Assembly: GCA_024655925.1 (NCBI GenBank)
Contig: JANLFS010000007.1
Span: forward strand, 19,256-54,037
Reading direction: 5' to 3'
Length of the DNA: 34,782 bases
DNA from: Bacillota bacterium
Lineage (GTDB): Bacteria; Bacillota; DTU025; JANLFS01
The notes beneath the pieces were generated by a model. It was not told the origin of the DNA. It made no database searches and was given only the letters and a program-made list of their open reading frames with translations. Shown piece by piece: positions 11,366 to 33,945 of this stretch. Position 1 is the stretch's first letter, and the number at the start of each line of letters is the position of its first letter. The position numbers and the translations under genes were made by a program.

Positions 11366-11387
11366 GACTCCAGGAGGTTTGTTTGGA

Positions 11388-17554: not shown

Positions 17555-17570
17555 TAGCGGGTTCCCCACT

Positions 17571-17606
17571 GTCCGCAGGAGGGCGGAGAACCGCCTTCCT
17601 GCGGAC
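17571..17606 (+). promoter_or_regulatory. strong intercistronic hairpin after the nucleoside-binding protein gene
   Basis: GTCCGCAGGAGGGCGG (17571-17586) pairs over 16 bases with CCGCCTTCCTGCGGAC (17591-17606), with a single G-T wobble and an AGAA tetraloop. No T-run follows; the next feature is AGGAGG at 17614-17619, the ribosome binding site of the ATPase gene. It probably stabilises the upstream message or reduces read-through so that more binding protein than membrane complex is made. Confidence 0.8.
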
Positions 17607-17628
17607 TCAGATCAGGAGGTTGTAGCCA

Positions 17629-19182
17629 GTGCAGCCAGCTGTTGAGATGCGAGGCATCCGCAAGGTCTTCCCTGGCGTCGTTGCCAACGACAATGTGGAC
17701 TTGACCATCAACGAAGGCGAGATCCACGCGCTCGTGGGCGAAAACGGGGCTGGAAAGAGCACCATCATGAACGTGCTATATGGGCTCTATCGCCCAGATG
17801 CGGGGACAATCAAGATCAACGGTCAGCCGGTGCAGATCCGCAAGAACTCCGACGCCATCGCGCTCGGAATCGGCATGGTCCATCAGAGTTTCAAACTGGT
17901 GCCTTCATTCACCGTCGCCGAGAACATCGTGCTCGGAGCGGAACCTCATCGTTCGATGTTCGTGGACCTGACAGCAGTGCACGATAGTGTCGTCGAGATA
18001 TCGAAGCGGTTCGGGTTGAAGGTCGACCCGGAGGCCCGGGTCAGAGACTTGCCCGTTGGTGTCCAGCAGCGGGTCGAGATTCTCAAGACACTGTATCGAA
18101 ATGCCAACATACTCATTCTCGACGAACCTACCGCGGTTCTGACCCCGCAGGAGACACGTGAGCTGTTTGGCGTCATTCGATCTCTTGTGGCCAAGGGCAA
18201 GACAGTCGTTTTCATCACGCACAAGCTGCGCGAGGTCATGGAAATCTCCGACCGAGTCACCGTCATGCGTGCCGGCAAAGTGGTGGGGACGAAGGACACG
18301 AAAGATACCAACCCCACGGACCTGGCTAGGATGATGGTCGGGCGAGAGGTTCTGCTGCGTGTGAAGAAGGAGCCTGCGAAGCCTGGCAAACCCGTTCTCC
18401 AGGTCCAGAACATAAGGGTACGCGATGACCGGTACCTCATGGCCGTACGTGGCCTCTCTCTCGAGGTTCGGGAGGGCGAGATACTTGGCATCGCTGGAGT
18501 GGAAGGCAACGGCCAGCGGGAATTGGTGGAGGCTCTTGTGGGGCTCCGGCCCCTGGTGGACGGCAAGGTGATCATCCACGGTCAGGAAGTAACGTCCGCC
18601 TCCGTGCGCGACAGGCGCGAGTCCGGCATGGCGTGTGTCCCAGAGGACCGGGCCGTGCGAGGCCTGGCCCCTCGGGCGAGCATAGAGGAGAACTTGATAG
18701 GGGTTTCGTACTTCAAGGAACCCATGAGCAAGCACGGGATTCTGAACCTCAAGGCCATGGCTGAGTTCTCTCGTGATTCCATCAAGAACTTCGATGTCCG
18801 GGCGGTGGGGAAGGACGTCCCCGCCTTCACCCTGTCAGGCGGCAACATGCAGAAGGTAGTGCTCGCCCGGGAGCTCAGCACCAATCCCAGACTCCTTATC
18901 GTGGCCCAGCCTACCCGGGGTTTGGACATAGGAAGCATCGAGTTCATGCACTCCCGGATAGTGGAGGCGCGGGACCGCGGCGCTGCCGTGTTGCTGGTCT
19001 CCGCTGAACTGGGAGAGGTCATGTCCCTCAGCGACCGGATTGCTGTGATGTATGAGGGCAGGATTGTGGGCGTCATAGACGCCGCGAAGGCCACGGAAGA
19101 AGGGCTTGGACTGTGGATGGCGGGTATCACGGATCGAGGCAATACAGGAGTGAAGGGTGAGGGGCATGAGCAGAGTTGTTGA
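17629..19182 (+). CDS. nucleoside ABC transporter ATP-binding protein (duplicated NBD, NupO/YufO type)
   Basis: Two fused ATPase domains in 517 residues; GTG 17629 lies nine bases after AGGAGG. NBD1 has Walker A GENGAGKST (37-45), a modified signature VGVQQRVEI and Walker B ILILDEPTAVL. NBD2 has GVEGNGQREL in place of a true Walker A, signature LSGGNMQK and IVAQPTRGLD, where Gln replaces the catalytic Glu. Such asymmetry is normal for the sugar/nucleoside importer subfamily (RbsA, NupO). It powers the two permeases that follow. Its 3' end overlaps the first permease gene. Confidence 0.95.
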   Translation: MQPAVEMRGIRKVFPGVVANDNVDLTINEGEIHALVGENGAGKSTIMNVLYGLYRPDAGTIKINGQPVQIRKNSDAIALGIGMVHQSFKLVPSFTVAENIVLGAEPHRSMFVDLTAVHDSVVEISKRFGLKVDPEARVRDLPVGVQQRVEILKTLYRNANILILDEPTAVLTPQETRELFGVIRSLVAKGKTVVFITHKLREVMEISDRVTVMRAGKVVGTKDTKDTNPTDLARMMVGREVLLRVKKEPAKPGKPVLQVQNIRVRDDRYLMAVRGLSLEVREGEILGIAGVEGNGQRELVEALVGLRPLVDGKVIIHGQEVTSASVRDRRESGMACVPEDRAVRGLAPRASIEENLIGVSYFKEPMSKHGILNLKAMAEFSRDSIKNFDVRAVGKDVPAFTLSGGNMQKVVLARELSTNPRLLIVAQPTRGLDIGSIEFMHSRIVEARDRGAAVLLVSAELGEVMSLSDRIAVMYEGRIVGVIDAAKATEEGLGLWMAGITDRGNTGVKGEGHEQSC

Positions 19183-20287
19183 CGGGCTCAAGAAGCATGT
19201 GAAGCGAGCCCTCTACGGCTCGTTCAGGCTGGGCGTAAGCATGGCCATCGCCGTGATCATCGGCTCGATTATAATCCTGCTGTACGGGCATAACCCAATC
19301 GAGATCTACGGAATGCTCATCCAGGGCGCCTTCGGCAGCCAGAGGAGCCTCTTCATTACTCTGCAGAGGGCAACCCCTCTCATATTCACCGCCCTCGCTT
19401 CGACGTTGGCGTTCCGAACAGGCGTGTTCAATGTGGGCATCGAGAGTCAGTTCTACGTCGGTGCTCTGTGCGGGACAGTCGTTGGATATGCGTTCGATCT
19501 TCCAGCGATCATCCACTTGCCTTTAACGTTCCTTGCCGCGTTCCTCGGCGGGGCGCTCTGGGCCGTTGTCCCTGCAATACTCCGGGAGCGGCTCAAGATC
19601 AGTGAGATCGTGACTACGATCATGACCAACTATGTTGCCTTCCAGCTCCGGGATTACCTTCTCATCTACGTGCTCAGAGTGGGGCCGCATCTTGCCGAAA
19701 CACCTTTCGTCAAGGACAGTGTCAAGTTGCCCCAGTTCACTGAGCTGGTTCCAGGGCTTGGCAGGGGCAGCCAGGCGCACGTGGGTATCTTCCTCGCCCT
19801 CGCCACCGCTATCATACTCTACCTCGTTCTCAAGTACACCAGGCGTGGGTACGAGTGGCGGATGGTCGGTGTGTCCTTTCCGTTCTCGGAGTTCGCGGGC
19901 ATTAATATGAGGCGGGCGTTCATGACGGGATTCGTCGTGAGCGGCGGCATAGCGGCCATCGGCGGGCTGGTGGAGATCTTGGGCGTCTGGCGCCGCTACA
20001 AGCAGTTGTTCGGCGTTGGGTTTGGGTTCAAGGGGAACCTCGCGGCCCTGCTCGGCGGGCGGACGGTGGTCGGCGCGACGGCTGCAGCGTTGTTCTACGG
20101 GAGCATGGAGGCGGGATCCGTGGCGCTCGAGTGGAATTCCGGTGTCCCAAGGCAACTGATCGACATCCTCATCGGCTTGATCATCTTCTTCATGGCGGCA
20201 CCCGGTCTGTGGGACTTCCTGAAGAGTGCCAAGCTGATATCTGGACCGAAAACGGCTCGCCGCGCCCCTGCGGGTCGGGAAGCATAG
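19166..20287 (+). CDS. nucleoside ABC transporter permease 1
   Basis: Polytopic membrane protein of 373 residues, branched-chain amino acid/sugar permease superfamily (NupP/YufP type). ATG 19166 is preferred, with AGGGTGAGGGG just upstream; a GTG at 19157 is inside that element. The gene overlaps the ATPase stop by 17 bases, indicating coupling. Family motifs are TPLIFTALASTLAFRTGVFNVGIESQF, here seen as two adjoining blocks, then SEIVTTIMTNYVA and the C-terminal GVGFGFKGNLAALLGG. The GxxNxGxEGQ-like block is typical of nucleoside permeases. Forms a heterodimer with the next gene product. Confidence 0.94.
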   Translation: MSRVVDGLKKHVKRALYGSFRLGVSMAIAVIIGSIIILLYGHNPIEIYGMLIQGAFGSQRSLFITLQRATPLIFTALASTLAFRTGVFNVGIESQFYVGALCGTVVGYAFDLPAIIHLPLTFLAAFLGGALWAVVPAILRERLKISEIVTTIMTNYVAFQLRDYLLIYVLRVGPHLAETPFVKDSVKLPQFTELVPGLGRGSQAHVGIFLALATAIILYLVLKYTRRGYEWRMVGVSFPFSEFAGINMRRAFMTGFVVSGGIAAIGGLVEILGVWRRYKQLFGVGFGFKGNLAALLGGRTVVGATAAALFYGSMEAGSVALEWNSGVPRQLIDILIGLIIFFMAAPGLWDFLKSAKLISGPKTARRAPAGREA

Positions 20288-20302
20288 GAGGGAAGGCAAG
20301 CA

Positions 20303-21307
20303 ATGGATGAGGTAATGCTGGCCCAGATAGGGCAAGTACTGAAGCGGTACGTGTTCAACCTGGCCAATCTTCAGGGGATGCTTCGTCTGTCCACTCCTGT
20401 GATTCTGTCTGGGTTGTCCGCTCTCATCACCAGCCGCGCTGGGATCATGAATATTGCGGCCGAAGGCATGATCAACCTGTGCACTTTCGCCGCCGTGGCC
20501 GGGAGCTACTTCCTCGGGCACGCGATAGGCGGCGTAGGGGTGGCGCTGCTCACGGGTCTTCTGGTCGGTGGCTTCTTCGCGCTGTTCTCCATCAAGTTCC
20601 GCGCGAACACCACTGTCATGGGAATCGCGATCAACATCACCTCAGTCTCGGTGACTATGTTCCTGTGCAGGGCCATCTTCAAGCAGGCGGGCGCGTTCAG
20701 TGATCCGAGTATCATGGGTCTTTCTCCCATTCATATTCCGGTTATCGAGAAGATCCCGATACTCGGCCCGCTGGTCAGTGGGTACAGCATCATCACCTAC
20801 CTCGCCTGGGCCCTCATACCCATCACCACCATATTCCTCTATCGGACGAGGACAGGCTGGCATCTCCGGGCCGTCGGCGAGAACCCCCAGGCCGCAGAGA
20901 CTCTGGGCATCAATGTCGACCGGATGAAGTTTGGGGCCATGATGGCCAGCGGTGTGTTTGCGGCTCTAGCAGCGTTGTACCTGTCATTGGCCCACCTTCA
21001 GATGTACACGGACGAGATGGCCGCCGGACGCGGCTTCATAGGCATGTCTGTCAACACCTTCGGAGGAGGCGAGCCCGCAGGAGTATTCCTCTCGAGCCTG
21101 TTGTTTGGGTTCGTCGACACTATTGGCTGGCGCCTGCAGGCCGACCGGATAATGCCTCCGCAGTTCATCACCATGCTGCCGTACGTGGCCACGTTGGTCT
21201 TCCTCACGGTATTCACCGTCCGCAAGAATCGACGGCTCAAGGCCGCGCTGGAGAAGGCTGCCCGCGAAGACGTGCAGGAGAGACAGAGTACAGCTGCCAG
21301 CGCGTAA
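20303..21307 (+). CDS. nucleoside ABC transporter permease 2
   Basis: Second membrane subunit, 334 residues from ATG 20303 after GGAGGGAAGG. Motifs of the NupQ/YufQ group: LRLSTPVILSGLSALITSRA, GIMNIAAEGMINLCTF, LRAVGENPQAAETLGINV and GRGFIGMSVNTFGG. About eight or more hydrophobic segments. With the binding protein, ATPase and first permease it completes a four-gene nucleoside importer. The nucleoside hydrolase gene follows closely, linking uptake to sugar release. Confidence 0.95.
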   Translation: MDEVMLAQIGQVLKRYVFNLANLQGMLRLSTPVILSGLSALITSRAGIMNIAAEGMINLCTFAAVAGSYFLGHAIGGVGVALLTGLLVGGFFALFSIKFRANTTVMGIAINITSVSVTMFLCRAIFKQAGAFSDPSIMGLSPIHIPVIEKIPILGPLVSGYSIITYLAWALIPITTIFLYRTRTGWHLRAVGENPQAAETLGINVDRMKFGAMMASGVFAALAALYLSLAHLQMYTDEMAAGRGFIGMSVNTFGGGEPAGVFLSSLLFGFVDTIGWRLQADRIMPPQFITMLPYVATLVFLTVFTVRKNRRLKAALEKAAREDVQERQSTAASA

Positions 21308-21358
21308 GGTGGGCGTCTTTTCCACCGGATGCTGGCGACGAAAGGATGGGTGTTCGAA

Positions 21359-22291
21359 TTGCGACGAAACGTCATCATTGATACGGACCCCGGCGTCGAC
21401 GATGCGCTGGCTTTGTTGTTCGCCCTGCGCTCGGACCAGTGGAGTGTTCTAGGGATCACCACGGTCGCGGGCAACATGATCCTGGACCAGACAACCCGTA
21501 ATGCGCTCGTCGTGGTCGAGAGGTCCGGCGCATCGGTCCCTGTCTTCAGGGGAGCGTACCGGCCTCTCAGGGAACCCCTCGAGACTGCCGAGCACGTACA
21601 CGGCCACGATGGCCTTGGCGACGTGGGCTTTCCCGATCCCGTCACGGCGGCAAGGCCAGAACATGCCGTAGATTTCATCGTCAAGACTGTCATGGGATCG
21701 GACGAGCCCGTAGAGCTGATCACTTTGGGCCCTCTGACCAACATCGCGATGGCGATCACGGCGGAGCGCGGGATAGAGGAGCGGGTACGCCGTCTGGTGA
21801 TGATGGTGGGAACGTGGACGGTGGGGAACATCACCCAGGCCGCGGAGTTCAACGCTGGGGTCGACCCCGAGGCGACCGACATTGTCTTCCGAAGCCGAAT
21901 CCCCAAGACCATGGTGGCCTTGGACCCGATCCGCGAGGGAGCGCTGATCGAGGCGGATGACGTCCCGACCCTTGAGAACGCGGATAGTCCGTGGTGCCAG
22001 ATGGCCGGGCAGCTGTTGCGCAGGAGCCTTGAGCGGTGGAAGAGACCCAGACTGTCCATGTGCGACCCGGCCGCAGTGGGCGTGGCCATCGACCCGTCCA
22101 TAGCCGAGATTCAACGACTCTCGGTCGGTATAGAGACCAGAGGTGAGTACACCCGTGGCATGACCGTGGTCGACCTGCGCTTCGGGTGCGGGCACAAGCT
22201 CGGGATAATGGAGCCCAACGTCGATGTGGTCATGAGCATAAACCCTGAACGGTTCCGGCGCCTGTACATGGACACCATGCTCAGGTACTGA
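21359..22291 (+). CDS. inosine-uridine preferring nucleoside hydrolase (IunH family)
   Basis: Cytoplasmic N-ribohydrolase that splits nucleosides to free base and ribose. The calcium-binding N-terminal motif IIDTDPGVDDALAL is intact, and the later ITLGPLTNIAMAI, AAEFNAGVDPEA and SMCDPAAVGVAI blocks supply the remaining ligand and ribose-binding residues. Start choice is uncertain: TTG 21359 (310 residues) puts the motif at residues 6-19 as in homologues and has AAAGGATGG upstream; GTG 21350 and ATG 21329 are in frame alternatives. The ribose it releases can be phosphorylated by the ribokinase at the end of this locus. Confidence 0.93.
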   Translation: MRRNVIIDTDPGVDDALALLFALRSDQWSVLGITTVAGNMILDQTTRNALVVVERSGASVPVFRGAYRPLREPLETAEHVHGHDGLGDVGFPDPVTAARPEHAVDFIVKTVMGSDEPVELITLGPLTNIAMAITAERGIEERVRRLVMMVGTWTVGNITQAAEFNAGVDPEATDIVFRSRIPKTMVALDPIREGALIEADDVPTLENADSPWCQMAGQLLRRSLERWKRPRLSMCDPAAVGVAIDPSIAEIQRLSVGIETRGEYTRGMTVVDLRFGCGHKLGIMEPNVDVVMSINPERFRRLYMDTMLRY

Positions 22292-22362: not shown

Positions 22363-22824
22363 ATGGCCAAACTCAAAGCTTACATCGCAAACCCCCTGAT
22401 CTTCAGCCCAGCCACGCGGGAGTGGTACAAGAACACGATGATCCCTGTGGTCGAGAAGCACGTTGAAGTGATCAATGCACCAGGTGCGGCAGGTGGAGCC
22501 AAGCTCGACGAATCCATGTCCAAAGCTGAGCGCAGCAAGGCGATTTTCGACTGGAACGTCAAGCGCCTGGACCAGTGCGATTTCGTCATATGCGTCATAG
22601 ACGGTGTCCAGACCGACGATGGCACTGCCTGGGAAGTCGGGTACGCCTGGGCAGAGGGGAAGCCGTCCATAGCCGTGCGTTTCGATGCGCGCGACGGATG
22701 CAAGGAGAAGGTTAGCCGGTTCACCAACCTAATGATCGAGAACAGCTGCGTGGACATGGTGGAGGGGCTTGAGGCGCTAGATCAGGCTCTAGCCAAGTAC
22801 GTCGCGGAGCGCTCGGCGGAGTAG
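22363..22824 (+). CDS. nucleoside 2-deoxyribosyltransferase family protein
   Basis: A 153-residue single-domain protein from ATG 22363, typical size for the family. The flavodoxin-like core begins with KAYIANPLIFS, corresponding to the YLAGPLF motif with Gly replaced by Asn. Then come FDWNVKRLDQCDFVICVIDG and TDDGTAWEVGYAWAEGKP, which contain the substrate-binding Asp pair (D85, D86) and the catalytic nucleophile Glu (E91). Known members swap bases between deoxynucleosides or hydrolyse deoxynucleoside monophosphates. Within a nucleoside operon it could handle deoxynucleosides that the ribohydrolase does not. Confidence 0.92.
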   Translation: MAKLKAYIANPLIFSPATREWYKNTMIPVVEKHVEVINAPGAAGGAKLDESMSKAERSKAIFDWNVKRLDQCDFVICVIDGVQTDDGTAWEVGYAWAEGKPSIAVRFDARDGCKEKVSRFTNLMIENSCVDMVEGLEALDQALAKYVAERSAE

Positions 22825-22881: not shown

Positions 22882-23622
22882 ATGGCTAAGATACAGCATC
22901 ACATTCACTGCCAGCCCGAGGACCTCGCCCCTTATGTATTGGCCCCGGGTGACCACGCCCGCGTCGACAGAATTGCGGCACACCTGGAGGAACCCAGGTT
23001 GGTCAGCGAGAGCCGCGGGTACCGCATTATAACCGGCCGGTACAAGGGAGCCCCTGTAACAGCCTGCTCCACGGGCATGGGATGCCCGCAGGTCGCGATC
23101 GCCGTCGAGGAGCTTGCCAATCTCGGAGTTCACACCTTCATCCGTGTGGGGTCGTGCGGAGCGCGTCAGGACTTCCTGAACATAGGGGACGTCGTTATCA
23201 CCAATGCTGCATACCGGGACGACGGCACGTCCATGTGTTACCTGCCGGCGCCGTTCCCCGCCGTCGCACATCAGGATGTGATGGATGCCTTGAGAGACGC
23301 CGCACGCAGCTGCGGTATACCTTGCCATGTCGGCATCACGGTCTCTGGTGATGCCTTCTATGGCCGGAAGTACGACAACCACTCGGACCTTCTCAAGCAA
23401 GCCGGTGTTCTCACTGTCGAGATGGAGAGCTCCACTTTGTTCATCGTTGCTCAGTGGCGCAAGGTCCGAGCAGGCACAATTCTGGCTGTGAGCGACAGGC
23501 CCGGGCAGAGAGTAACCGATCCCGAGGTGGAGAAGATCTTCCGTCGCGGGGAACAGGACATGATACGAATTGCCCTAGAATCGGTGAGGGTGTTGCACGA
23601 CAGGGACGCTGCCGCCAAGTAG
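22882..23622 (+). CDS. uridine phosphorylase / purine nucleoside phosphorylase family (PNP_UDP_1)
   Basis: Phosphorolytic nucleosidase of 246 residues from ATG 22882, with GGAGGAGGAG upstream. Motifs: DLAPYVLAPGDHARVDRIA (phosphate/active-site loop), CSTGMGCPQVAIAVEEL, FIRVGSCGA, SGDAFYGR and VEMESSTLF, the Glu-Met-Glu ribose-binding signature. The MESSTLF form is nearer to uridine phosphorylase than to DeoD, but base specificity is uncertain. It yields ribose-1-phosphate or deoxyribose-1-phosphate for the phosphopentomutase in the same locus. Confidence 0.92.
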   Translation: MAKIQHHIHCQPEDLAPYVLAPGDHARVDRIAAHLEEPRLVSESRGYRIITGRYKGAPVTACSTGMGCPQVAIAVEELANLGVHTFIRVGSCGARQDFLNIGDVVITNAAYRDDGTSMCYLPAPFPAVAHQDVMDALRDAARSCGIPCHVGITVSGDAFYGRKYDNHSDLLKQAGVLTVEMESSTLFIVAQWRKVRAGTILAVSDRPGQRVTDPEVEKIFRRGEQDMIRIALESVRVLHDRDAAAK

Positions 23623-23671
23623 AAGGTGTGCCCGCCCGATTCGCCATCCAGATATTAGAGGGGTGCACCGA

Positions 23672-25069
23672 GTGGCATTACCGAGCAAGTCGCTGTCTTG
23701 GCAGAAGTCTCTTTCGTACGCTGAGAGCCTCCAAGTATGGGCCCTGGTGTGGCCGGTAGTAATCATGTCTCTTCTGGAGAACGGTCTCCGATTGCTGGAG
23801 ATGTGGTGGGTGAAACCACTGGGAACCGCAGCTACTGCGACGCTGTCGGTCGCCGCTTCGATCACCCTCATCCTCGAGGCCATCGCTCGCCTGCTGCAGA
23901 CGGGGAACTTGGCAATCGCCTCCCGCCACGTCGGGGCGGCCGACCCTCAAGAGGCGATATCCGCCTTCTGCCACACCTTCATACTGGCGGTCGGCGTCTA
24001 TATGCTGCTAGGCCCGATTGGGTCGGGAGTGGCCCGTCCGCTCATCCTCCTGCTGGGATGGGAGGCGGATGTGGTTGGTCCCGCGGCGGGCTACATCCGG
24101 ATCATCCTTCTGGGGTCACTAGTGTACCTTCTCAAGCGAGTCATCTACAGTGCTTTCTATTCGTTCGGGGATTCAAAGGCCCCAATGAAGATCATGGCGG
24201 CGGCGGTCCTGGCCAACGCGGTCCTGGCCCCAGCACTCATCTACGGATGGGGGCCCATACCCAGGCTTGAGCTGAACGGGGCCGCGCTCGCCATGATTCT
24301 CGCCCAGGGGTTGGGCGTTGGAGTTGGCCTGATCATGTTGCAGGTTCGGCACAGGGGGCATTTCAACATCACCGGCATGGTCAGGACCAAGCTCAGATGG
24401 GAGCGGTTCGTCGAAATCGCGCGGATCGGATTGCCGGTCGGAGCGCAGACCGTGTCCAGGAGCTTCTCGCACCTGGTCATGCTCAGGATCGTGTCCATTT
24501 TCGGAACTGCGGCCGTGGCTGGGTATGGGGTCGGTTCGCGCGTCGCCGGGTTCCCCCTGATGATTGCCACAGGCGCCTCAATAGCAAGTGGGGCCCTGGT
24601 GGGCCAGAGGCTTGGCGCCAAAGATCCCGATGGCGCGGAACGTGCGGCGTATACCGCAACCGGAATGACGTGCCTCATCCTGGCAGCCACCTCCGCCGTG
24701 GCTTTCACAACAGCGCCGTGGCTGATCGGGCAGTTCACCCGAGACCCCGAGACTATCGTAAACGGCGTGGCTTACCTGAGGATGCTCGCCCTGGTCCACG
24801 TGTTTGTGGGGATAACCATGTGCCTGAGAGGCGCAATGAACGGTGCTGGGTACACGCTTGTTCCTGTCTACCTTGAGAACATCGACCTGTGGGTGATCCA
24901 GATCCCCGTCGCTTTTCTGCTAGGGCAACACCTGGGCTTCGGAACCCAGGGCCTTTGGTGGGGTATCGCCATCTCCGAGGTGGTCCTGGGCATCGCGTAC
25001 ATTTGGCTCTTCAGGATGGGACGCTGGAAATACGTAAGAATAGCCCGGCCCGGAACGCCCCATAGCTGA
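23672..25069 (+). CDS. MATE-family efflux transporter
   Basis: Multidrug and toxic compound extrusion protein, 465 residues with about twelve hydrophobic segments. GTG 23672 is preferred since AGAGGGG (23656-23662) is nine bases upstream but abuts GTG 23663. MATE features: WPVVIMSLLENGLRLLEMWWV near the N-terminus, ARIGLPVGAQTVSRSF at the start of the second half, GYGVGSRVAGFPLMIATGAS, and ALVGQRLGAKDPDGAE. It is an ion-coupled exporter. Placement inside a nucleoside operon suggests export of a nucleobase or nucleoside analogue, which is inference. Confidence 0.93.
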   Translation: MALPSKSLSWQKSLSYAESLQVWALVWPVVIMSLLENGLRLLEMWWVKPLGTAATATLSVAASITLILEAIARLLQTGNLAIASRHVGAADPQEAISAFCHTFILAVGVYMLLGPIGSGVARPLILLLGWEADVVGPAAGYIRIILLGSLVYLLKRVIYSAFYSFGDSKAPMKIMAAAVLANAVLAPALIYGWGPIPRLELNGAALAMILAQGLGVGVGLIMLQVRHRGHFNITGMVRTKLRWERFVEIARIGLPVGAQTVSRSFSHLVMLRIVSIFGTAAVAGYGVGSRVAGFPLMIATGASIASGALVGQRLGAKDPDGAERAAYTATGMTCLILAATSAVAFTTAPWLIGQFTRDPETIVNGVAYLRMLALVHVFVGITMCLRGAMNGAGYTLVPVYLENIDLWVIQIPVAFLLGQHLGFGTQGLWWGIAISEVVLGIAYIWLFRMGRWKYVRIARPGTPHS

Positions 25070-25156
25070 TGCGGGGGTCACGGCGCCATGGAGGCCGTGG
25101 AGCTGGCGCGGAGGACTGGGGAACGGGTGTGAGCCGTGTGCCGAGAGGAGACGAAA

Positions 25157-26119
25157 ATGCGAATCTACTACGCGAGGCCGATCTTCACCCGCTCCGAACA
25201 CGAGTTCAACACAAAAGTGGAGAAGCTCGTGGACGAGGCGGGAATCAGCCGGCAAAGATGGGGCGGCACAAAGGAGAACGCCACCCGCACCAGGGCGAAG
25301 AGGGTGTTTGACAACGACTATGCCGGCCTCGAGGAGGCTCAGGCTATGCTCGCCGTCTTGAGTGGGACGGAAGTCGACGATGGGACGGCCGCGGAGATCG
25401 GAATCTTCCACGCTCTTATGCGGGCGGACAAGGGCAAAAAAGGCATCGTCGCGGTGTTGGACGACTGGCGCACCGACACTGAGAACCCGAAGTTCGAGGG
25501 GAGGGGCCTGAGCTATTCGATATTGGGCTGTCTACGGAGATCGGGTGTGATAGTCCAGACAGTCGAGGATGGGATCGAGAAGCTCCGGGAGTGGGATAGG
25601 GAGCTCGAGGCTTCAGCCCCGACGCCCGAGGCATCGTGTGCAGTTGACGAGACTGGTGAGCCAGCAAGACTCGTCTACCTCACCGGCCCTCTGTATACCC
25701 CCTACGCGCGGCGACACATCGCCGAATGTGCTCAGGCCCTGCGGGAGAGGGGCATGGAGGTCTATGTCCCTTCCGGGCGGGCCGAAGCGCGCCCCACGCT
25801 CACGCCTGAAGAGGTGTTCGACCAGGACGCCGCGGCGTTGTCGCGCGCGAAGGCACTCGTGGCTGTAATGGACGGTGCACAAGTCGATGACTCGGTGGCC
25901 ATGGAAATCGGCATATTCTGCGTGCTGCTCAGGCGAGACCCTGCGAAGAAAGGAATGCTGGGCCTGATGACGGACTCCCGCGGCCTGCGCTGGCGAGACA
26001 ACGAGTTCGGGACCAACCTCTTCGTTGCTGGGATCATACACGAGTGCGGCCGCATCATGGACGATTTCGACGGGCTCGCCGGGCAGCTCGATGCCTGGAT
26101 GAAGGAAGTCTTAACATGA
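25157..26119 (+). CDS. tandem-duplicated nucleoside 2-deoxyribosyltransferase-like protein
   Basis: A 320-residue protein with two copies of the deoxyribosyltransferase fold, about 170 residues apart. ATG 25157 follows GAGAGGAG at a normal distance. Copy 1: IYYARPIFT (3-11), FDNDYAGLEEAQAMLAVLSG, VDDGTAAEIG (73-82, Glu80). Copy 2: VYLTGPLYT (173-181), FDQDAAALSRAKALVAVMDG, VDDSVAMEIG (243-252, Glu250). Both retain the catalytic-type Glu. Copy 1 has lost the Gly of the GP loop and copy 2 the Gly of DDG. A linker near 150-170 (EASAPTPEAS) joins them. Family enzymes are oligomers with shared active sites, so the fusion may form an internal pseudo-dimer. Substrate unknown. It overlaps the next gene by four bases. 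Confidence 0.88.
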   Translation: MRIYYARPIFTRSEHEFNTKVEKLVDEAGISRQRWGGTKENATRTRAKRVFDNDYAGLEEAQAMLAVLSGTEVDDGTAAEIGIFHALMRADKGKKGIVAVLDDWRTDTENPKFEGRGLSYSILGCLRRSGVIVQTVEDGIEKLREWDRELEASAPTPEASCAVDETGEPARLVYLTGPLYTPYARRHIAECAQALRERGMEVYVPSGRAEARPTLTPEEVFDQDAAALSRAKALVAVMDGAQVDDSVAMEIGIFCVLLRRDPAKKGMLGLMTDSRGLRWRDNEFGTNLFVAGIIHECGRIMDDFDGLAGQLDAWMKEVLT

Positions 26120-27366
26120 CACGCGTTGTTAGGAGCGCGTCTGACTACATGAGACGGGTGCGCGGGCTGGACCAAAGCATCGGTCTGTACTTCGCCGCGG
26201 TGGCGTTGAGCAGTATCGCGCTGGGTATATTCAGCGTCGCTTTCAACCTGTACATCCTCTCTGTCGGGATCGGCGAGGGCAAGCTCGGCGCGATTGTCGG
26301 CGCAGGCCCCTTTGCTACGGCGCTTGTGGCGATCCCCGTAGCCTTCGCAGCGGAGATCATCGGCTACAAGAGGAGCTTCTTGATCATTCTGGCCATTACC
26401 GGGGCCACGCAGCTCGCCCGGGTGGCCACGGCTAGTGTGCCCGTGATACTCGTGGCCGCCTTCATAAGCGGGCTCGGCTCCGCGGGCGAGTTTGTGGTGA
26501 AGCTCCCGTTTCTTGCAGACTACAGCGACGCCTCGAACCGGACCCTCGTTTTCAGCTTGAACACCCTGCTGACTAGTGTGGCCACAGCCGTCGGCACGGT
26601 TCTCGCCGGGTACATGCCGAATATGGGGCGCCTCGCCTCGTTCGACCTCAGCCTGGCGTACCGGTACACCTTGTACTTCGCGTCTGCGTTGAACCTGCTT
26701 GGGCTGGTGCCTTTGTGGTTCATCAAGGCGAGGAAGCCGAAAGAGAGGAAGACCATAAGCCTCGGCCCTTACCTTTGGGGAATAGACAGGCGCACGGTGA
26801 AACTGGCATGTATGTCATTGTTTCGCGGCCTGAACATGGGGTTCGTGAATCCGTTTCTCAACATCTACTTCATCAATCATCTGGGCACTACCCGGGAGTT
26901 TTTCAGCAACATCTCGGCGCTCGCGATAATCCCGATCATGATCGGAGTCGCCCTGGGGCCGCACCTGGCGAAGCGCATCGGCAATGTGCGAGCCATTACA
27001 GTGCTGCGTTGGGGCATACCTGTTCCCGCCCTGGTGATGGCTCTCACGACCAACCCGATCACTGCAGCAGTTGCCGAGTGGGTCCACCGGGTGGCCTCGA
27101 TGATGGAGACGCCCTTGTCGTTTGCTTACTCCATGGAGGTGGCCACGGAACGGACCAGGGCGGCGACGGCAGCGTGGCTTCATGTCACTTTTGTGCTGGG
27201 AACGGCTGCGGCCGCTCCGATCACTGGCCTCTGCCTGGCCCAGGCCAACTACCGGCTTCCATTCTATCTGTCTGCCGTGTCCATGGCTACAGCGGGCCTG
27301 TTGAATGAGGTGTTTTTCGGGGTGCGCGCGGCGCGGCAGCGGATGCAGGAGCGGACAGCAGCATGA
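26116..27366 (+). CDS. major facilitator superfamily transporter
   Basis: A 416-residue membrane protein with about twelve hydrophobic segments. ATG 26116 overlaps the previous stop (ATGA). MFS hallmarks include a loop 2-3 region (PVAFAAEIIGYKRSFLI) and the two six-helix halves separated by a charged central loop (IKARKPKERKTISLG). FRGLNMGFVNPFLNIYF starts the second half. No substrate can be read from the sequence. With MATE it makes two secondary transporters inside the nucleoside locus; one could export bases, the other import or export pentoses. The stop overlaps the region just before the isomerase-like gene. Confidence 0.9.
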   Translation: MTRVVRSASDYMRRVRGLDQSIGLYFAAVALSSIALGIFSVAFNLYILSVGIGEGKLGAIVGAGPFATALVAIPVAFAAEIIGYKRSFLIILAITGATQLARVATASVPVILVAAFISGLGSAGEFVVKLPFLADYSDASNRTLVFSLNTLLTSVATAVGTVLAGYMPNMGRLASFDLSLAYRYTLYFASALNLLGLVPLWFIKARKPKERKTISLGPYLWGIDRRTVKLACMSLFRGLNMGFVNPFLNIYFINHLGTTREFFSNISALAIIPIMIGVALGPHLAKRIGNVRAITVLRWGIPVPALVMALTTNPITAAVAEWVHRVASMMETPLSFAYSMEVATERTRAATAAWLHVTFVLGTAAAAPITGLCLAQANYRLPFYLSAVSMATAGLLNEVFFGVRAARQRMQERTAA

Positions 27367-27386
27367 GTCGAAGCGGAGGGGTGAAG

Positions 27387-28628
27387 ATGATAAAGGTTAA
27401 CGTCGTTCCTTTTACGTCTCTGCGAGGAAACAGAGAAGCTACACAGGATAGGGTGTTGCAGCTCTTCGGGGAAATCGAAGTCCTTCCAGGGCTCGAGTGT
27501 ACGCTGGTGGATCCCAATGAAAAGCAGCCTGAGGCGGACGTCACCGTACTTCTGGCGATGGGCGGCGGGATCGAGCCCAGGATGCTGCCGTTCATAGAAT
27601 GCATGGACGAGCCGGCATTGATCCTCGCAAGGCCGGCGGGGAACGCCCTTGCGGCAGCGCTCGACGTCCTCGCGATCGCAAACGGGGCTGGCCGCCCAGG
27701 CCGGATCGTGCAGGCGACAGAAGGATGGCAGGATGAGCTCAGTGAGCTCATCGCGGTTTTCGCCGCCGGTGCCAGGTTGAAGGGAAGGCACATCGGGGTC
27801 ATCGGAACCCGGGCGATCGAGGTCATGGACGTACTCCGCCTGACGATCCAGGTCAGGAAGGTTTGGGGCCCTCGCCTCGTTCATATGGAGATGCAGGAAC
27901 TGATCGATGGTATAAGGAGCGTGGACCCTGCTCAAGCCAGGCAGAGAGCAGAAGAGTTCGGCAGGGGTGCCTCCAGGATCGTCGAGCCAGACCAAGAGAC
28001 ACTCGTCGGGGCGGCGCAGATCTACTTGGGCCTGCGCCGGGTGGTCGAGAGCCGGCGCCTGAATGCGGTCACGGTCAAATGCTTCGACCTCATCCCGGTC
28101 CTTGCCAATACCGGATGTTACGCGCTGGCCCGGCTGAACGAAGAGGGAATCCCGGCAGGGTGTGAGGCGGATGTCCTCTCCACTCTTGGCATGCTGTTTA
28201 TTCGCGAACTGACAGGCCTTCCGAGCTTCATGGCGAATCCAGTGGTCATAGATCCGGGTTCCGGGATGATCACCCTTGCCCATTGCACCATTGCGCGGAA
28301 CATGGCCACCTCATACATTATCCGGTCTCACCTGGAGTCTGGGCTGGGTGTGGGGATCCAGGCGGACCTCAGTCCCGGTCCCGTGACGATTGTGAGGCTG
28401 GGCGGTGGGAGGCTGGACCAGGTGTTCGCGGCGCGTGGCGACCTCAGTGGATGCGGCTTTAGGGATGACATGTGCAGAACTCAGCTTATGATAAAGCTGT
28501 CGGATCCCGAGACCGCCAGATCGATTCTGTCCCGGCCCCTGGGCAACCATCACCTGGTCGTGGCTGGGGACTGGTTGAAGAGAATCCGCGAGTTTCAATC
28601 TATCTTCATGCGAGCGGACGGGGTCTAG
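27387..28628 (+). CDS. L-fucose/L-arabinose isomerase-like protein
   Basis: A 413-residue protein related to fucose/arabinose isomerases. ATG 27387 follows GGAGGG at six bases; an in-frame ATG 27363 overlapping the MFS stop lacks its own site. The C-terminal catalytic-like part contains TVKCFD (C232-D234), then CYALARLNEEGIPAGCEADV (E260, D262), LTGLPSFMANP and AHCTI (H299), the residues expected to bind the divalent metal and sugar in this family. Family enzymes interconvert aldoses and ketoses. Lying between transporters and phosphopentomutase, it may isomerise ribose or another pentose released from nucleosides, but no such role is established to my knowledge. Confidence 0.85.
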   Translation: MIKVNVVPFTSLRGNREATQDRVLQLFGEIEVLPGLECTLVDPNEKQPEADVTVLLAMGGGIEPRMLPFIECMDEPALILARPAGNALAAALDVLAIANGAGRPGRIVQATEGWQDELSELIAVFAAGARLKGRHIGVIGTRAIEVMDVLRLTIQVRKVWGPRLVHMEMQELIDGIRSVDPAQARQRAEEFGRGASRIVEPDQETLVGAAQIYLGLRRVVESRRLNAVTVKCFDLIPVLANTGCYALARLNEEGIPAGCEADVLSTLGMLFIRELTGLPSFMANPVVIDPGSGMITLAHCTIARNMATSYIIRSHLESGLGVGIQADLSPGPVTIVRLGGGRLDQVFAARGDLSGCGFRDDMCRTQLMIKLSDPETARSILSRPLGNHHLVVAGDWLKRIREFQSIFMRADGV

Positions 28629-28682
28629 CGGACACGCCCTGGGCTCGGTTGGATCCCTGGAGTACAAGGAGGCAGTTACTTG

Positions 28683-29900
28683 GTGAGTGCAGGCATTGTG
28701 GACAGAGTCATCTTGATCGTCATGGATAGTGTGGGCATCGGGGCCTTGCCCGACGCCGACTCTTTCGGAGATGTGGGCAGTGACACGTTGCGCAACACAG
28801 CCCGCGCGGTGGGAGGGCTCAACCTGCCCTTTTTCTCTCGCCTTGGCCTTGGGAACCTGGCCCAGGGTTTCGGAGAGCCGATCCTGGGTGTGCCCGCTGT
28901 AGAGGCGCCACTCGCCGCATTCGGCCGGATGGCGGAGAAATCCTCCGGGAAGGACACGACGACAGGCCACTGGGAGATAGCAGGCATTATCCTGGACCGG
29001 CCGTTCCCGGTCTACCCGGATGGTTTCCCGCCCGAAGTCATCAGTGCCTTCGAAGATGCCATAGGCACCAGGACTCTCGGCAATAAGCCGGCCTCGGGAA
29101 CGGAGGTCATCAAGGAGCTGGGCGATGAGCATGTGAGAACTGGGTTCCCGATCGTCTACACCTCCGCGGACAGTGTGTTCCAGATCGCTGCCCACGAGGA
29201 CGTGATTCCCGTGGAGAGACTCTACGAGATGTGCCGGATCGCACGGTCATTGCTTGCCGGTGAGCACGGAGTCGGGCGTGTCATTGCCCGCCCGTTTGTG
29301 GGCACGCCAGGCAAGTACGTAAGGACTGAGCGGCGCAAGGACTTCTCCATCAAGCCCCCACGGAGGACCCTGTTGGACTTCATCGGGGCGGCTGGAATGG
29401 ACGTGACCGGGGTAGGCAAGATCGAGGACATATTCGCATTTCAGGGCCTCACCCGCTCGGACCATACCGGCAACAACGAAGAAACGATGATGGCTGTAAC
29501 GAGGCTGGTCCAGGAGGACAGCAAAGGTCTCATCTTCGCGAACTGCGTCGACTTCGACATGCTCTGGGGGCACCGCAATGATGCGCGGGCGTATGCGCGG
29601 GGCCTGGAGGAGCTAGATGGGATGATTGAAAACCTCACCGGGGTCCTCCGTGACCGGGACGTGCTTGTCGTCACGGCGGACCATGGTTGTGACCCCACGA
29701 CACCGAGCACGGACCATTCGCGAGAGTACGTTCCGCTACTTGTCTACGGAAAGACCGTCAGGCCTGGCGCGTTTCTCGGCACCCGCGCCTCGTTTGCCGA
29801 CCTTGGGCGGACGATTGCAGACCTGCTCGGGGTGGAGGCAGATATCTCGGGCGAGAGCTTCAGAGATGCGATCCTGAAAGGAAGTGTGCCATGTCTATGA
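28683..29900 (+). CDS. deoB: phosphopentomutase
   Basis: Alkaline-phosphatase-superfamily mutase, 405 residues. AGGAGG (28667-28672) serves either GTG 28683 or TTG 28680 one codon upstream; GTG is preferred. Diagnostic motifs: [17 protein letters not shown] (metal ligand Asp), [18 protein letters not shown] (phosphorylated Thr region), TNxTGK-like KADSV is absent but [14 protein letters not shown] is present, and [20 protein letters not shown] near the C-terminus. It converts ribose-1-phosphate or deoxyribose-1-phosphate to the 5-phosphate, linking the phosphorylase above to central metabolism. The ribokinase start lies inside its last codons. Confidence 0.97.
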
Positions 29901-30820
29901 TCGTGGTTTTGGGAAGTCTCAATATGGATCTGGTCACCAGAGTCTCCCGACTCCCAATGAAGGGGGAGACCCTCACTGCACTTGGATTCCACACAGTCCC
30001 GGGAGGCAAAGGAGCCAACCAGGCCCTTGCCGCCGCCAGGCTCGGGGCAGATGTCAGGATGATCGGCCGAGTGGGACGCGATGCTTACGGTGAGATGCTT
30101 CTGGCGAACCTGTGCGCGGACGGGGCGGATGTCTCGCACGTGGTATTGGACTCGAGCGCTCCGACGGGGATGGCCTTCATTACCGTGGACACTGCCGGGG
30201 CAAACACCATCGTTGTCTACCCCGGCGCCAATGCCCATTGCTCTGAGGAAGATGTGGACGCCTGTCGCAGCTTGATCAGTGGCGCCCGGGTTCTCATCGC
30301 TCAACTTGAAATCCCAGTTGAGACAGTGGAGTACGCATTTGAGCTCGCCCGGGCCTCGTCGGTCATGACGATCCTGAACCCGGCGCCCGCGCGGAAGCTG
30401 CCCGCGGCTCTTCTGGCCTCCACTGACCTCTTGATTCCGAACGAGGTTGAAGCTGGCCTCCTCTCCGGGATGCCGGTTTCCGACCCGGACAGCGCACTGC
30501 GTGCTGCGGCCCACCTACGCGAGCAAGGCCCTGCGCGGGTAGTGATCACTCTGGGGTCGAAGGGGGCTATCTACGCCGGGCCTGAGGGGACCATCCACGG
30601 TCACGCTTTCAGGGTACAGGCAGTCGATTCAACGGCTGCCGGAGATGCATTCATCGGCGCGTGGGCCGCTGCGTGGACTCGCGGTGCCGCGATTTCGGAG
30701 AGCCTACGGTATGCCTCAGCCGCCGGTGCGGCGGCAACCACCACTGTCGGCGCGCAATCCTCGTTGCCCAGGCCCGAGCAGGTTCTCGCCCTCTTGGAGC
30801 AGCGTTCGCCATCGGATTAA
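29891..30820 (+). CDS. rbsK: ribokinase (PfkB family)
   Basis: A 309-residue carbohydrate kinase from ATG 29891, overlapping the deoB end by ten bases. PfkB motifs: [30 protein letters not shown] (first signature), NPAPA and NEVEA typical of ribokinase, and the catalytic [14 protein letters not shown] with its Asp base. It phosphorylates ribose to ribose-5-phosphate. The hydrolase upstream releases free ribose, so this completes the hydrolytic route while deoB completes the phosphorolytic one. It is the last gene of the locus; the following 291 bases hold only small dyads and the promoter of the next unit. Confidence 0.95.
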
Positions 30821-31062
30821 CTTAAGGCAACTTCAGATTGAGCCGGCCCCGGCGTTCTTCCGGAAGGAGGCTCTCCGCAAGGACGTGCCGCTCGAGAGCA
30901 TGTAGTCATCTGATCAACCTAACGCCCAAATACTGCCTGCATCCCGCTTCCGGCAAGGCTCTGCGCATCTAGCCTGGCCGCCTGGTCAGCTTCTCTTGCT
31001 CACCCAACCTTCAGTCGCGTGCACCTGGCCCCCTGTGCCACTGGTGGAGTCACGTAACACCC

Positions 31063-31091
31063 TTGACAATGCGAGGGCGAGCAACTAGAAT
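31063..31091 (+). promoter_or_regulatory. sigma-A promoter of the SorC-family regulator operon
   Basis: TTGACA (31063-31068) and TAGAAT (31086-31091) are separated by exactly 17 bases, one mismatch from consensus overall. Transcription would begin near 31098, leaving a leader of about 14 bases that contains the GGGAGGG ribosome binding site. CCAC/GTGG arms at 31038-31047 just upstream could be part of an operator, but this is weak. Confidence 0.85.
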
Positions 31092-31111
31092 GTGTGTGGG
31101 AGGGAAAATCT

Positions 31112-32083
31112 TTGCCGCAAAAATTTGCACAGCCCTTTGCCGATGTCGAAACCAGGCTTGCGATGGCTCTCTGGGTTGCGGAGCGCTACTACTTGCACAG
31201 ACAGAGCCAGAAGGACATCGCGCGTGAGATGGGGTGTTCCATAGCCACTGTCTCCCGCCTGCTCAGGATGGCCGAAGATGAAGGCATTGTCCGGATACAT
31301 ATAGAGAAGCCGGCCGCGAGGGCGACAGAGGCGGAGCGGGATCTGTGCGAGAGGTTTGACCTGAAGGCGTGCCGAGTGGTGGGGGCCCCAGCGGATGGCT
31401 TGCTTGCCAAGAAGATCATTGGCGCTGCGGCGGCTCAGCTCATCGCGGAACTGGTCTCTGACGGAGACATCGTGGGGCTGTCCTGGGGGGTCACCATGCG
31501 AGAAGTGGTGAACTCTCTGCCCTCCCACAGGCGGCACGTGAGTCTAACTGCCGTCCCTCTCATAGGCGGGCTCGGTCAGGTCAAGCCAGAGCACCAGGTT
31601 AACGACCTTGTGCACGCATTCGCCGAGTGCTTCCAGGGCAACTGCATGATGTTGCACGCACCGGCTCTCTCTGATCACGAGTCCACCGTGGCGCTGCTCC
31701 TCAAGGAAGCTCCTATCTCCCGGGTGGTCGGCATGTGGGAACACCTTACCATGGCAGTGGTAGGCATAGGGGAGAGCCCACCAACGTCCCCGATGAGGAA
31801 GACCGGATACTACGACGACACAGAGCTCGAAGAGCTCATAAGAGTCGGAGCCGTTGGTGACATATCCGGCAGGTTCTTCGACTGCAACGGGGTGGAGTCG
31901 CCTGCCTCAGCGAACCGGAGGCTCTTGTCGATCCCGTTCCCAACTCTCCGGGCAGTGAACTACCGTGTCGGGGTTGCAGGTGGACCCGCCAAGATCAAGG
32001 CGATTACGGGCGCCCTCCGGGGCAGCCTCATCAACATCCTGGTGACAGATTCCACTACAGCGCATGCTCTTATCGCACAATGA
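31112..32083 (+). CDS. SorC/DeoR (LsrR-like) sugar-binding transcriptional regulator
   Basis: A 323-residue regulator. The start is TTG 31112, seven bases after GGGAGGG; the earlier in-frame GTG 31094 lies before the predicted transcription start. The N-terminal helix-turn-helix reads WVAERYYLHRQSQKDIAREMG then CSIATVSRLLRMAEDEGIVRI. The C-terminal sugar-phosphate-binding domain has KKIIGAAAAQLIAELV, DGDIVGLSWGVTMREVV and VPLIGGLGQ, as in LsrR, SorC and Bacillus DeoR. Such proteins respond to phosphorylated sugars (phospho-AI-2, deoxyribose-5-P, sorbose). It heads an operon with a dehydrogenase, an LsrF-like aldolase and a sugar ABC transporter, which it probably controls. Confidence 0.94.
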   Translation: MPQKFAQPFADVETRLAMALWVAERYYLHRQSQKDIAREMGCSIATVSRLLRMAEDEGIVRIHIEKPAARATEAERDLCERFDLKACRVVGAPADGLLAKKIIGAAAAQLIAELVSDGDIVGLSWGVTMREVVNSLPSHRRHVSLTAVPLIGGLGQVKPEHQVNDLVHAFAECFQGNCMMLHAPALSDHESTVALLLKEAPISRVVGMWEHLTMAVVGIGESPPTSPMRKTGYYDDTELEELIRVGAVGDISGRFFDCNGVESPASANRRLLSIPFPTLRAVNYRVGVAGGPAKIKAITGALRGSLINILVTDSTTAHALIAQ

Positions 32084-32098
32084 CCGAGGAGTGAGATC

Positions 32099-33124
32099 AT
32101 GAAGGTTGCCGTCTACTACGGGCCCGGCAAGATGGAGATCGAGGATTGGCCCGTGCCTCCAGTGGAGGACCGCGACATCCTCATCAGGATCCGCACCAGC
32201 ATGGTTTGTGGGACTGACGTGAAGACGTTTCTCAGAGGGCATCCTCTGTTCAAACCTCCGACAGTACTCGGCCACGAGTTTGCGGGAGAGGTCGTTGAGG
32301 TCGGCGCAGCAGTCCGCTCGGTAGCCCCTGGGGACCGAGTCACGGTGGCTCCTTTCATCAGTGATGATGTCTGCTTCTACTGTAGGGCAGGGTTGAAGGA
32401 GCTGTGCCCGTCTAGACGCTATCTGAGCAACGGGGCGTTCAGTGAGTATGTGAAGATAGACGAGGATTACGCCCGGACGGGCCTGGTCAAGTTGTCGTCG
32501 GATGTGACGTGGCAGGAGGGAGCCTTGACAGAGCCCATCGCCTGCGTGGTCAACGCTGTATCCGACCTGCACATCACTCCAGGCGACACTGTGGCGGTAG
32601 TGGGAGCGGGTCCAATGGGGCTGCTCAATGCTCTCATCAGTAGGGCATCTGGCGCAGGCAGTGTTGCCGTCCTGGAGATCGACGCCGGCCGCCGGGCGAT
32701 TGCAGGTTCGATGGGTTTCATCACTGTGGATCCTGGCTCAGAAGATGCCGTGGCGCGCATAAAGTCTCTCACGGACGGACGTGGGTCGGATCAGGTGATC
32801 CTTGCAGTGGGATCTGCCTCACTGATCCCGGACGCCATGGCGCTTGCCAGGCCCGGGGCGAAAGTGATGCTCTTCGGAGGGTTTCCCCAGGGCGAGAGTG
32901 CGCGATTCAACCCGAACCTCGTCCACTACCAGCAAGTATCCGTCATTGGGACCTCCGGATTCACCCCGGAGGATTTCGCCCACGCAGGCAAGCTCGTCAA
33001 CTCCCGGGCCTTTGATCTTCGCCCGCTCATCACGCACAGATTCCGCATTGACGAGATAAGGAAAGCCATCGAGACTGCGGCAAGCACAGAGAGTCTCAAA
33101 GTCGAGATTGCGTTGGACGAGTGA
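32099..33124 (+). CDS. zinc-dependent medium-chain alcohol/polyol dehydrogenase
   Basis: A 341-residue NAD(P)-dependent dehydrogenase of the sorbitol/threonine dehydrogenase type, from ATG 32099 after GAGGAGTG. Catalytic zinc ligands are C37 (VCGTD), H59-E60 (GHEFAGEVV) and E145 (TEPIAC). The structural-zinc loop has C92, C95 and C103, but the usual first Cys is Asp (D89). The Rossmann motif VGAGPMG is at 168-174, with Glu (LEID) at the end of beta-2 favouring NAD. It likely oxidises a sugar alcohol or keto-sugar in the same pathway as the next aldolase. Specificity unknown. Confidence 0.93.
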   Translation: MKVAVYYGPGKMEIEDWPVPPVEDRDILIRIRTSMVCGTDVKTFLRGHPLFKPPTVLGHEFAGEVVEVGAAVRSVAPGDRVTVAPFISDDVCFYCRAGLKELCPSRRYLSNGAFSEYVKIDEDYARTGLVKLSSDVTWQEGALTEPIACVVNAVSDLHITPGDTVAVVGAGPMGLLNALISRASGAGSVAVLEIDAGRRAIAGSMGFITVDPGSEDAVARIKSLTDGRGSDQVILAVGSASLIPDAMALARPGAKVMLFGGFPQGESARFNPNLVHYQQVSVIGTSGFTPEDFAHAGKLVNSRAFDLRPLITHRFRIDEIRKAIETAASTESLKVEIALDE

Positions 33125-33153
33125 CGCGACCTCGGAGGGAGGTGGATTGAACC

Positions 33154-33945
33154 ATGACACTGGGAAAGGCAAACCGGCTGTCGAGGATCTTCAGACCTGA
33201 TGATGGGATGAGCGTGATGCTCGCCCTGGACCACGGGATGGCTCTCGGGCCTATCAAAGGTATTGAGAAGCCGGCGGATACTATCGCGCCCCTGGCCCCG
33301 TTCGTTGATGCGCTGATGGCCACGAAGGGCGTCATTGCCAGGGCTTTCGAGCCTGATGGCCGGGTGGGAGTAGTCCTAAGAGCCTCCGGTGCCGCCACCA
33401 TCGCCGGCCCTGACCTGACGAACGAGGGTCTCACGGCCACTGTGGAGGAGGCCATCAGGCTGAGCGCAGATGCCGTTGCCACCTCCATATTCGTCGGCAC
33501 ACCCAACGAGCGCGAGACAATCGAAAACCTTGCGCATCTTGCGGGAGAGTGCTCAAGGTACGACATCCCCGTCCTCGCCGTTACCGCTGTGGGAAAAGAC
33601 CGTGAGAAGCAATTTGACGCCAAGTACCTCGCGCTGGCGTGCAGAGTGGCAACTGAGCACGGAGCTGACCTGGTCAAGACCTACTTCACTCCGGAAGGAT
33701 TTGACTCAGTGGTTGAGACTTGTGGCGTGCCCATAATAATCGCCGGTGGCCCCAAGCTCGAGACCGAGGTCGATGTTCTAAGGCTAGCAAAAGCTGCTGT
33801 GGGGCAAGGGGCGAAAGGTATCGACATGGGCAGGAACGTCTGGCAGAGCCCGAATCCGGTTCTGATGGTCCGCGCACTCCGTGCCATCATTCACGAGGGG
33901 GCCACTACAGAGCAGGCAACCGAGATCCTGGGTGAGGTGATCTAA
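33154..33945 (+). CDS. class I aldolase, DhnA/LsrF family
   Basis: Schiff-base TIM-barrel aldolase or thiolase of 263 residues; ATG 33154 follows GGAGGGAGGTGG. Strong resemblance to LsrF: NRLSRIF, VMLALDHGMALGP, VVLRASGA, VTAVGKD, DLVKTYFT with the likely Schiff-base Lys (K175), PIIIAGGPKLE and GIDMGRNVWQS. It lacks the roughly 25-40 residue N-terminal extension of enterobacterial LsrF. LsrF cleaves the phosphorylated AI-2 product with CoA; related enzymes cleave ketose phosphates. With the SorC regulator and sugar ABC ATPase the set is lsr-like, but a sugar-alcohol pathway is equally possible. Confidence 0.92.
   Translation: MTLGKANRLSRIFRPDDGMSVMLALDHGMALGPIKGIEKPADTIAPLAPFVDALMATKGVIARAFEPDGRVGVVLRASGAATIAGPDLTNEGLTATVEEAIRLSADAVATSIFVGTPNERETIENLAHLAGECSRYDIPVLAVTAVGKDREKQFDAKYLALACRVATEHGADLVKTYFTPEGFDSVVETCGVPIIIAGGPKLETEVDVLRLAKAAVGQGAKGIDMGRNVWQSPNPVLMVRALRAIIHEGATTEQATEILGEVI

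Follow-up and report, generated by a model that had tools for sequence, protein, structure and literature searches.

Nucleoside 2-deoxyribosyltransferases (NDTs) have active sites that are complete only in the dimer (PMC10913048), in which an Asn lent by the partner monomer touches the substrate 5'-OH (PMC7308715). In CtNDT, Tyr7 polarises the nucleophile, Glu88, Asp82 is placed at the 5'-OH, Asp111 is the general acid, Ser10 contacts the sugar 3'-OH, and the D62N variant retains about 50% efficiency (PMC10913048). A search of the open-access literature, with subscription papers outside its coverage, returned no report of a two-domain or of a heterodimeric or otherwise heteromeric NDT, and the relatives in the PDB are single-domain NDTs.

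The window, which is the whole 34,782-nucleotide stretch analysed here (contig JANLFS010000007.1, Bacillota), encodes a protein that matches the NDT family PF05014 over two stretches (E = 8.9e-27, 94 bits for the whole protein). The initial annotation had proposed two NDT-like domains in one chain with their catalytic-type Glu residues 170 positions apart. Both halves indeed match the family (45.5 and 51.6 bits against a curated cut-off of 28.8 in a profile scan of the genome), the spacing from E80 to E250 is exactly 170 residues, and the motif strings that it had picked out, including ARPIF (from residue 6) and TGPLY (from residue 176), are all present. The halves share 29% identity (E about 1e-18) and are joined by a Pro/Ala/Glu-rich linker that is normal in type. 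NCBIfam has no family for this protein or for the single-domain member upstream. A TIR/NADase reading was rejected, as the TIR_2 match is sub-threshold (18.2 bits versus 28). The features of the gene are as follows.

25143..25150 (+), probable ribosome binding site GAGAGGAG, 6 nt before the ATG
25157..26119 (+), fused A-B NDT-like coding sequence, 320 aa, stop included in the coordinates (open reading frame with PF05014 matches)
25157..25612 (+), half 1, residues 1-152, A-subunit orthologue (identity to A proteins, tree, NDT fold in the model)
25175..25177 (+), codon of Arg7, which aligns with CtNDT Ser10 (residue comparison; PMC10913048)
25373..25402 (+), VDDGTAAEIG, half-1 nucleophile motif, from residue 73; E80 codon at 25394-25396
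25511..25519 (+), Ser119-Tyr120-Ser121, degraded trans-acting N-x-F/M motif of half 1 (key-residue table)
25613..25669 (+), linker, residues 153-171, with pLDDT <50 at 156-165 in the predicted model
25670..26113 (+), half 2, residues 172-319, B-subunit orthologue without the ~40-aa insert of B (identity to B proteins, tree)
25883..25912 (+), VDDSVAMEIG, half-2 nucleophile motif, from residue 243; E250 codon at 25904-25906
26015..26023 (+), Asn287-Leu288-Phe289, the trans-acting motif, intact in half 2 and by prediction completing the E80 site (motif role: PMC7308715)

The surrounding cluster opens with an IclR regulator and an amidohydrolase and continues in the order given here, with the fused gene between the MATE and MFS transporters.

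16478..21307 (+), nucleoside-type ABC transporter: Bmp/PnrA-type binding protein, ATPase and two permeases
21329..22291 (+), nucleoside hydrolase (IU_nuc_hydro), 63% identical to the neighbour of the second fused gene described below
22363..22824 (+), separate single-domain NDT-like protein (PF05014) from another branch of the family
22882..23622 (+), uridine phosphorylase-like protein (PNP_UDP_1)
23663..25069 (+), MATE transporter
26116..27366 (+), MFS transporter, ATGA overlap with the fused gene
27363..33945 (+), sugar genes: isomerase-like protein, phosphopentomutase, ribokinase, SorC-type regulator, Zn-dehydrogenase and DeoC-family aldolase

The single-domain PF05014 member, to which the initial annotation had also pointed, ends 2.33 kb upstream of the fused gene. 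It has Asn for Gly in the first loop (ANPLIF), is kin to proteobacterial proteins and stands outside the subfamily of the fused protein. The isomerase-like gene (27363-28628, +), which overlaps the MFS gene and is followed by the phosphopentomutase, has weak similarity only, to the sulfoquinovose isomerase/L-arabinose isomerase group, and possibly encodes a pentose isomerase of the nucleoside cluster that has gone unrecognised. Elsewhere in the window, an ORF of 411 aa (11355-12590, +) has no Pfam match at E <= 0.001.

When genome contigs were scanned with a profile, a PF05014 subfamily emerged with members in Chloroflexota (Anaerolineae), one actinobacterial MAG, and one Bacillota MAG. In five Anaerolineae-type contigs, two such genes, which we call A and B, adjoin with an ATGA start/stop overlap. 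The A proteins have about 160 aa, and the B proteins about 195 aa including an insert of ~40 aa. Compared with the window protein, the A proteins show 43-50% identity to half 1 and the B proteins 38-43% to half 2. The cluster around the A-B pairs is also similar: identities to the window reach 76% for the ABC ATPase, 58-66% for the permeases, and up to 58% for the nucleoside hydrolase, and the position of the MFS gene in the window matches that of MFS genes downstream of A-B in Anaerolineae. In one Chloroflexota MAG cluster (L041:7528-9076), three consecutive NDT-like genes encode A, A, and B. The B insert (L040:8492-9073 and the other B proteins) follows VPHE, in a place comparable to that of the shielding loop of DNPH1, and there is no such insert in half 2 of the fused proteins. 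Outside these clusters, an NDT-like gene on a Streptosporangium plasmid (L037:6001-6477) lies within a queuosine/deazaguanine-type cluster and possibly serves a deazapurine nucleoside.

Searching 249 genomes of Anaerolineae, the class of Levilinea, for other two-domain members, as the initial annotation had suggested, yielded one more (genome G566, L093:964-1968, minus strand), 45% identical to the window protein over 325 residues. Its gene directly adjoins a nucleoside hydrolase, which is the best match (63%) of the one in the window, and the genome also encodes a canonical A-B pair. Beside the second fused gene, on the opposite strand (L096:7330-9902), genes for an amidohydrolase and a uroporphyrinogen-decarboxylase-like protein overlap end to start. 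The second fused protein likewise has ARPIF in half 1 and, in half 2, DDAVALEIG. Since they are common to both fused proteins, we consider the odd motifs an inherited signature and not the product of decay or assembly error.

A proteins, B proteins, and single relatives in the subfamily keep G-P, VPHE, DDGT/S..E, and N-x-F/Y; the exceptions in the key-residue table are the fused proteins and one pair of adjoining genes from another contig, described below. At residue 7, both fused proteins have Arg where all non-fused A and B relatives have Gly. The window protein is without the VPHE loop in half 1 and without its His-Glu in half 2, and the second fused protein shows both losses. Counted from the nucleophile, Gly(-4) and Thr(-3) are replaced in half 2, and Gly7Arg and Thr247Val are identical in the two fused proteins. 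The trans-acting motif of half 1 reads S119/S121 in the window protein and N/L in the second fused protein, and that of half 2 of the window protein is N287/F289. Because the second protein keeps the half-1 trans Asn and has Cys for Asp55, the degraded site is not strictly conserved between the two; the objection that the Cys raises is softened by the CtNDT D62N variant, which matches Asp55 and stays about half as efficient.

Both fused proteins retain the Tyr, the Asp at -6, the Glu, and the general-acid Asp (TD.R motif) in each half. With the correspondence to CtNDT set by profile alignment, the changed positions are, as read from these alignments, substrate-binding positions or their neighbours and not residues of the chemistry. 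Arg7, for example, falls on the Ser that contacts the 3'-OH. The VPHE loop lies near the position of the base/water residues E55-H56 of DNPH1 when aligned by eye (PMC10603095), and in other NDTs the loop at this position varies while its Pro is kept (profile alignment). The initial annotation had described reciprocal motif loss. This holds insofar as substrate-binding loops have changed and half 1 has lost its Asn/Phe; the loss is neither cleanly reciprocal nor catalytic. Its view of IYYARPIF, which has no GP loop, as degenerate is not supported, as the family does not require Gly before Pro: AvNRT has Ala there (PMC7308715) and CtNDT has Ser (PMC10913048). The VPHE loss in half 1, Ser119/Ser121, and the His-Glu loss in half 2 had escaped it.

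Complementary oddities also occur in an adjoining NDT pair on the minus strand of another contig (L105:1032-1484 and 1489-2025). One subunit has DDEVACEIG and a Ser at the trans position, and the other has SSGTACEIG with Ser at -6. In DNPH1, S98 and S128' play a role in phosphate binding (PMC10603095), and the pair could together recreate this two-serine site as a heteromeric nucleotide hydrolase.

Predicted models of the two fused proteins (pTM 0.87 and 0.83) show two NDT-like folds each, and in the window protein the two repeats have an identical strand-helix order, so that neither half lacks the fold. The best PDB matches in Foldseek are NDTs (TMt 0.6-0.8 over about 150 residues), each match covering one half at a time; it is the arrangement of the halves that we infer. 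MAFFT put every A and B protein onto one half of the tandem, and structure alignments were therefore limited to A proteins and the two fused proteins. Since relatives encode the halves as two adjoining genes with overlapping start and stop, a built-in heteromeric pairing is indicated: the two halves very probably form a pseudo-heterodimer within one chain. The initial annotation had anticipated an obligate internal heterodimer, and the conservation of the changes in the second fused protein agrees with it. The linker would also allow domain-swapped homodimers.

With a probability of roughly 60%, we propose that the window protein is a fused A-B NDT-like enzyme, an obligate pseudo-heterodimer with two unequal composite sites that acts through Glu80 on a deoxyribonucleoside-type substrate other than that of the canonical A-B pair. 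If the halves pair like NDT monomers, site 1 would consist of Tyr4, Asp55, Asp74, Glu80, and Asp103 of half 1 with Asn287 and Phe289 of half 2; its covalent-glycosyl chemistry appears intact, in a pocket that would be reshaped by Arg7 at the sugar 3' position and by the loss of VPHE. Site 2 would combine Tyr174, Asp224, Asp244, Glu250, and Asp273 of half 2 with Ser119/Ser121 of half 1 and may be weakened or redirected. Because site 1 keeps the residues of the chemistry and site 2 receives the two serines in place of Asn/Phe, we expect the first to be good but refitted and the second to be weakened. By double displacement through Glu80, the enzyme would break or exchange the N-glycosidic bond of a substrate of the 2'-deoxyribonucleoside type; the substrate would be imported by the adjacent ABC transporter, and sugar and base would pass to the deoxyribose/ribose enzymes encoded nearby. 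A single residue rule (cited in PMC7308715), applied to the Tyr at the 2'-specificity position, favours 2'-deoxy sugars. A nucleotide substrate (5'-monophosphate), which the initial annotation had entertained, is disfavoured, as both halves have Asp and not Ser at -6.

A bolder version of this proposal is tentative and, in our judgement, carries well under an even chance. It sees a distinct type of enzyme, a single-chain hetero-NDT, one of whose composite sites has been refitted by the conserved Arg at the sugar 3' position and the loss of the base-binding VPHE loop for a substrate outside the range of known NDTs, such as a 3'-substituted or otherwise modified deoxynucleoside. Its second site would be structural or regulatory, and it would have descended from an undescribed two-gene heteromeric NDT system.

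Two other functional readings start from the same residues. The catalytic residues retained in both halves, and the distinctness of both halves from the canonical A-B pair, would also suit two active composite sites with different specificities, such as donor cleavage in one and transfer or a second substrate in the other. We regard this as unlikely, since half 1 of the window protein has Ser119 and Ser121 where site 2 would need Asn/Phe and since half 2 has replaced Gly(-4) and Thr(-3). Improbable too is a pseudo-enzyme or binding protein with both sites dead, whose role would be to sense or sequester a nucleoside or to regulate the cluster. Altered substrate loops in both halves and their long branches are what such a protein would show, but the four catalytic residues are kept in all halves although the fused proteins are only 45% identical overall, and the gene is embedded in a catabolic operon. 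The fused enzyme with unequal sites remains our preferred reading.

The origin of the two halves bears on a further alternative. In the tree, half 1 falls inside the A clade (support 100/99) and half 2 inside the B clade (99/97); the first halves of the two fused proteins pair with each other (100/99), and so do the second halves (99/94). Half 1 is the A orthologue and half 2 is the B orthologue. Two homologous halves within one ORF could have come from tandem duplication of a single NDT gene whose copies then drifted, with a role in gene dosage or stability. This is very improbable, given that each half is less close to its partner than to an outside family, a different one in each case, and that a constraint holding all four fused halves together was rejected (p-AU 0.0002; p 0.026 in a smaller tree). 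The tree and the AU test reject internal duplication as the origin. Most simply, these relationships would reflect a single A-B fusion and then accelerated change, after which, we infer, the fused gene spread across phyla. As the motifs are fully intact in the split A and B subunits, the two-subunit organisation predates the motif changes. A and B themselves are best explained as ancient paralogous subunits of an NDT-family N-glycosidase/transferase in a nucleoside-utilisation cluster.

The fusion is rare: roughly 1,000 genomes of Bacillota and Chloroflexota contained two cases. Whole-protein and Pfam searches found no further fused members in 399 Bacillota genomes, nor did a sample of 400 Chloroflexota genomes contain any, and none of 11 further genomes of the host's order has the locus. 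A Pfam scan of 397 genomes from the phylum of the actinobacterial MAG (L062) found no ORF with two full PF05014 domains, and E. coli gave no match. Phage or plasmid origin was rejected, as tblastn found no match in phages and one distant single-domain match only in plasmids; in viral contigs the whole protein is absent, and the profile recovered distant single-domain relatives only. An artefact of assembly or binning in a metagenome-assembled genome is hardly credible as the source of the fusion, even with the genome in 232 contigs, this absence from the order, and a cluster that resembles those of Chloroflexota, because a second fused protein with the same motifs comes from an unrelated assembly, the linker is of a normal type, and the tetranucleotide composition of the cluster fits other contigs of its genome (0.41-0.60) about equally well as, or better than, Anaerolineae (0.26-0.49), a difference that is not decisive. 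Bin contamination, which the composition does not suggest, would alter the host and not the protein.

NDTs are used to make nucleoside drugs, and a natural variant with refitted pockets and a one-chain pairing is therefore of practical interest. The occurrence of fused and separate two-gene forms, even in one genome, offers a series for following the change from a symmetric enzyme to an asymmetric one whose active sites are unequal, and it predicts that the Anaerolineae A-B gene pairs are heteromeric enzymes.

The closest counterpart is the Anaerolineae A-B pair (e.g., Levilinea saccharolytica L040:8001-9076), which belongs to the same subfamily, with half 1 corresponding to A and half 2 to B. 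As in the window, its clusters contain an ABC transporter, a nucleoside hydrolase, phosphorylases, MFS transporters, and a kinase. The pair has two genes where the window has one, its motifs are canonical (AGPLF, VPHE, VDDGTA.EIG, and N-x-F), and the ~40-aa insert of its B subunit is missing from half 2. With the characterised NDTs (LlNDT 1f8x, CtNDT 8pqr/8qc0, E. faecalis 7m5h, and D. psychrophila 7o62), the window protein shares the fold, the Glu with Asp at -6, the Tyr, and the general-acid Asp, and their trans Asn is present in half 2. Those enzymes are single-domain homo-oligomers with identical sites, whereas the window protein has two non-identical domains per chain and altered substrate loops. 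AvNRT from Archaeoglobus veneficus resembles it in the TDYR motif and in an obligate dimeric site with Asn/Met supplied in trans, but is single-domain, accepts ribonucleosides, and has Phe where both halves here have Tyr (PMC7308715). The nucleotide N-hydrolases DNPH1/Rcl and MilB belong to the same superfamily and use a double-displacement Glu, as here. They have a Ser at -6 for the 5'-phosphate (S98 in DNPH1, S97 in MilB) where the window protein has Asp74 and Asp244, and the first-loop Arg of MilB that controls specificity, R23 (PMC4081090), differs in position from Arg7. Set beside these systems, the fusion of two different NDT subunits is a new form of a well-known enzyme family.
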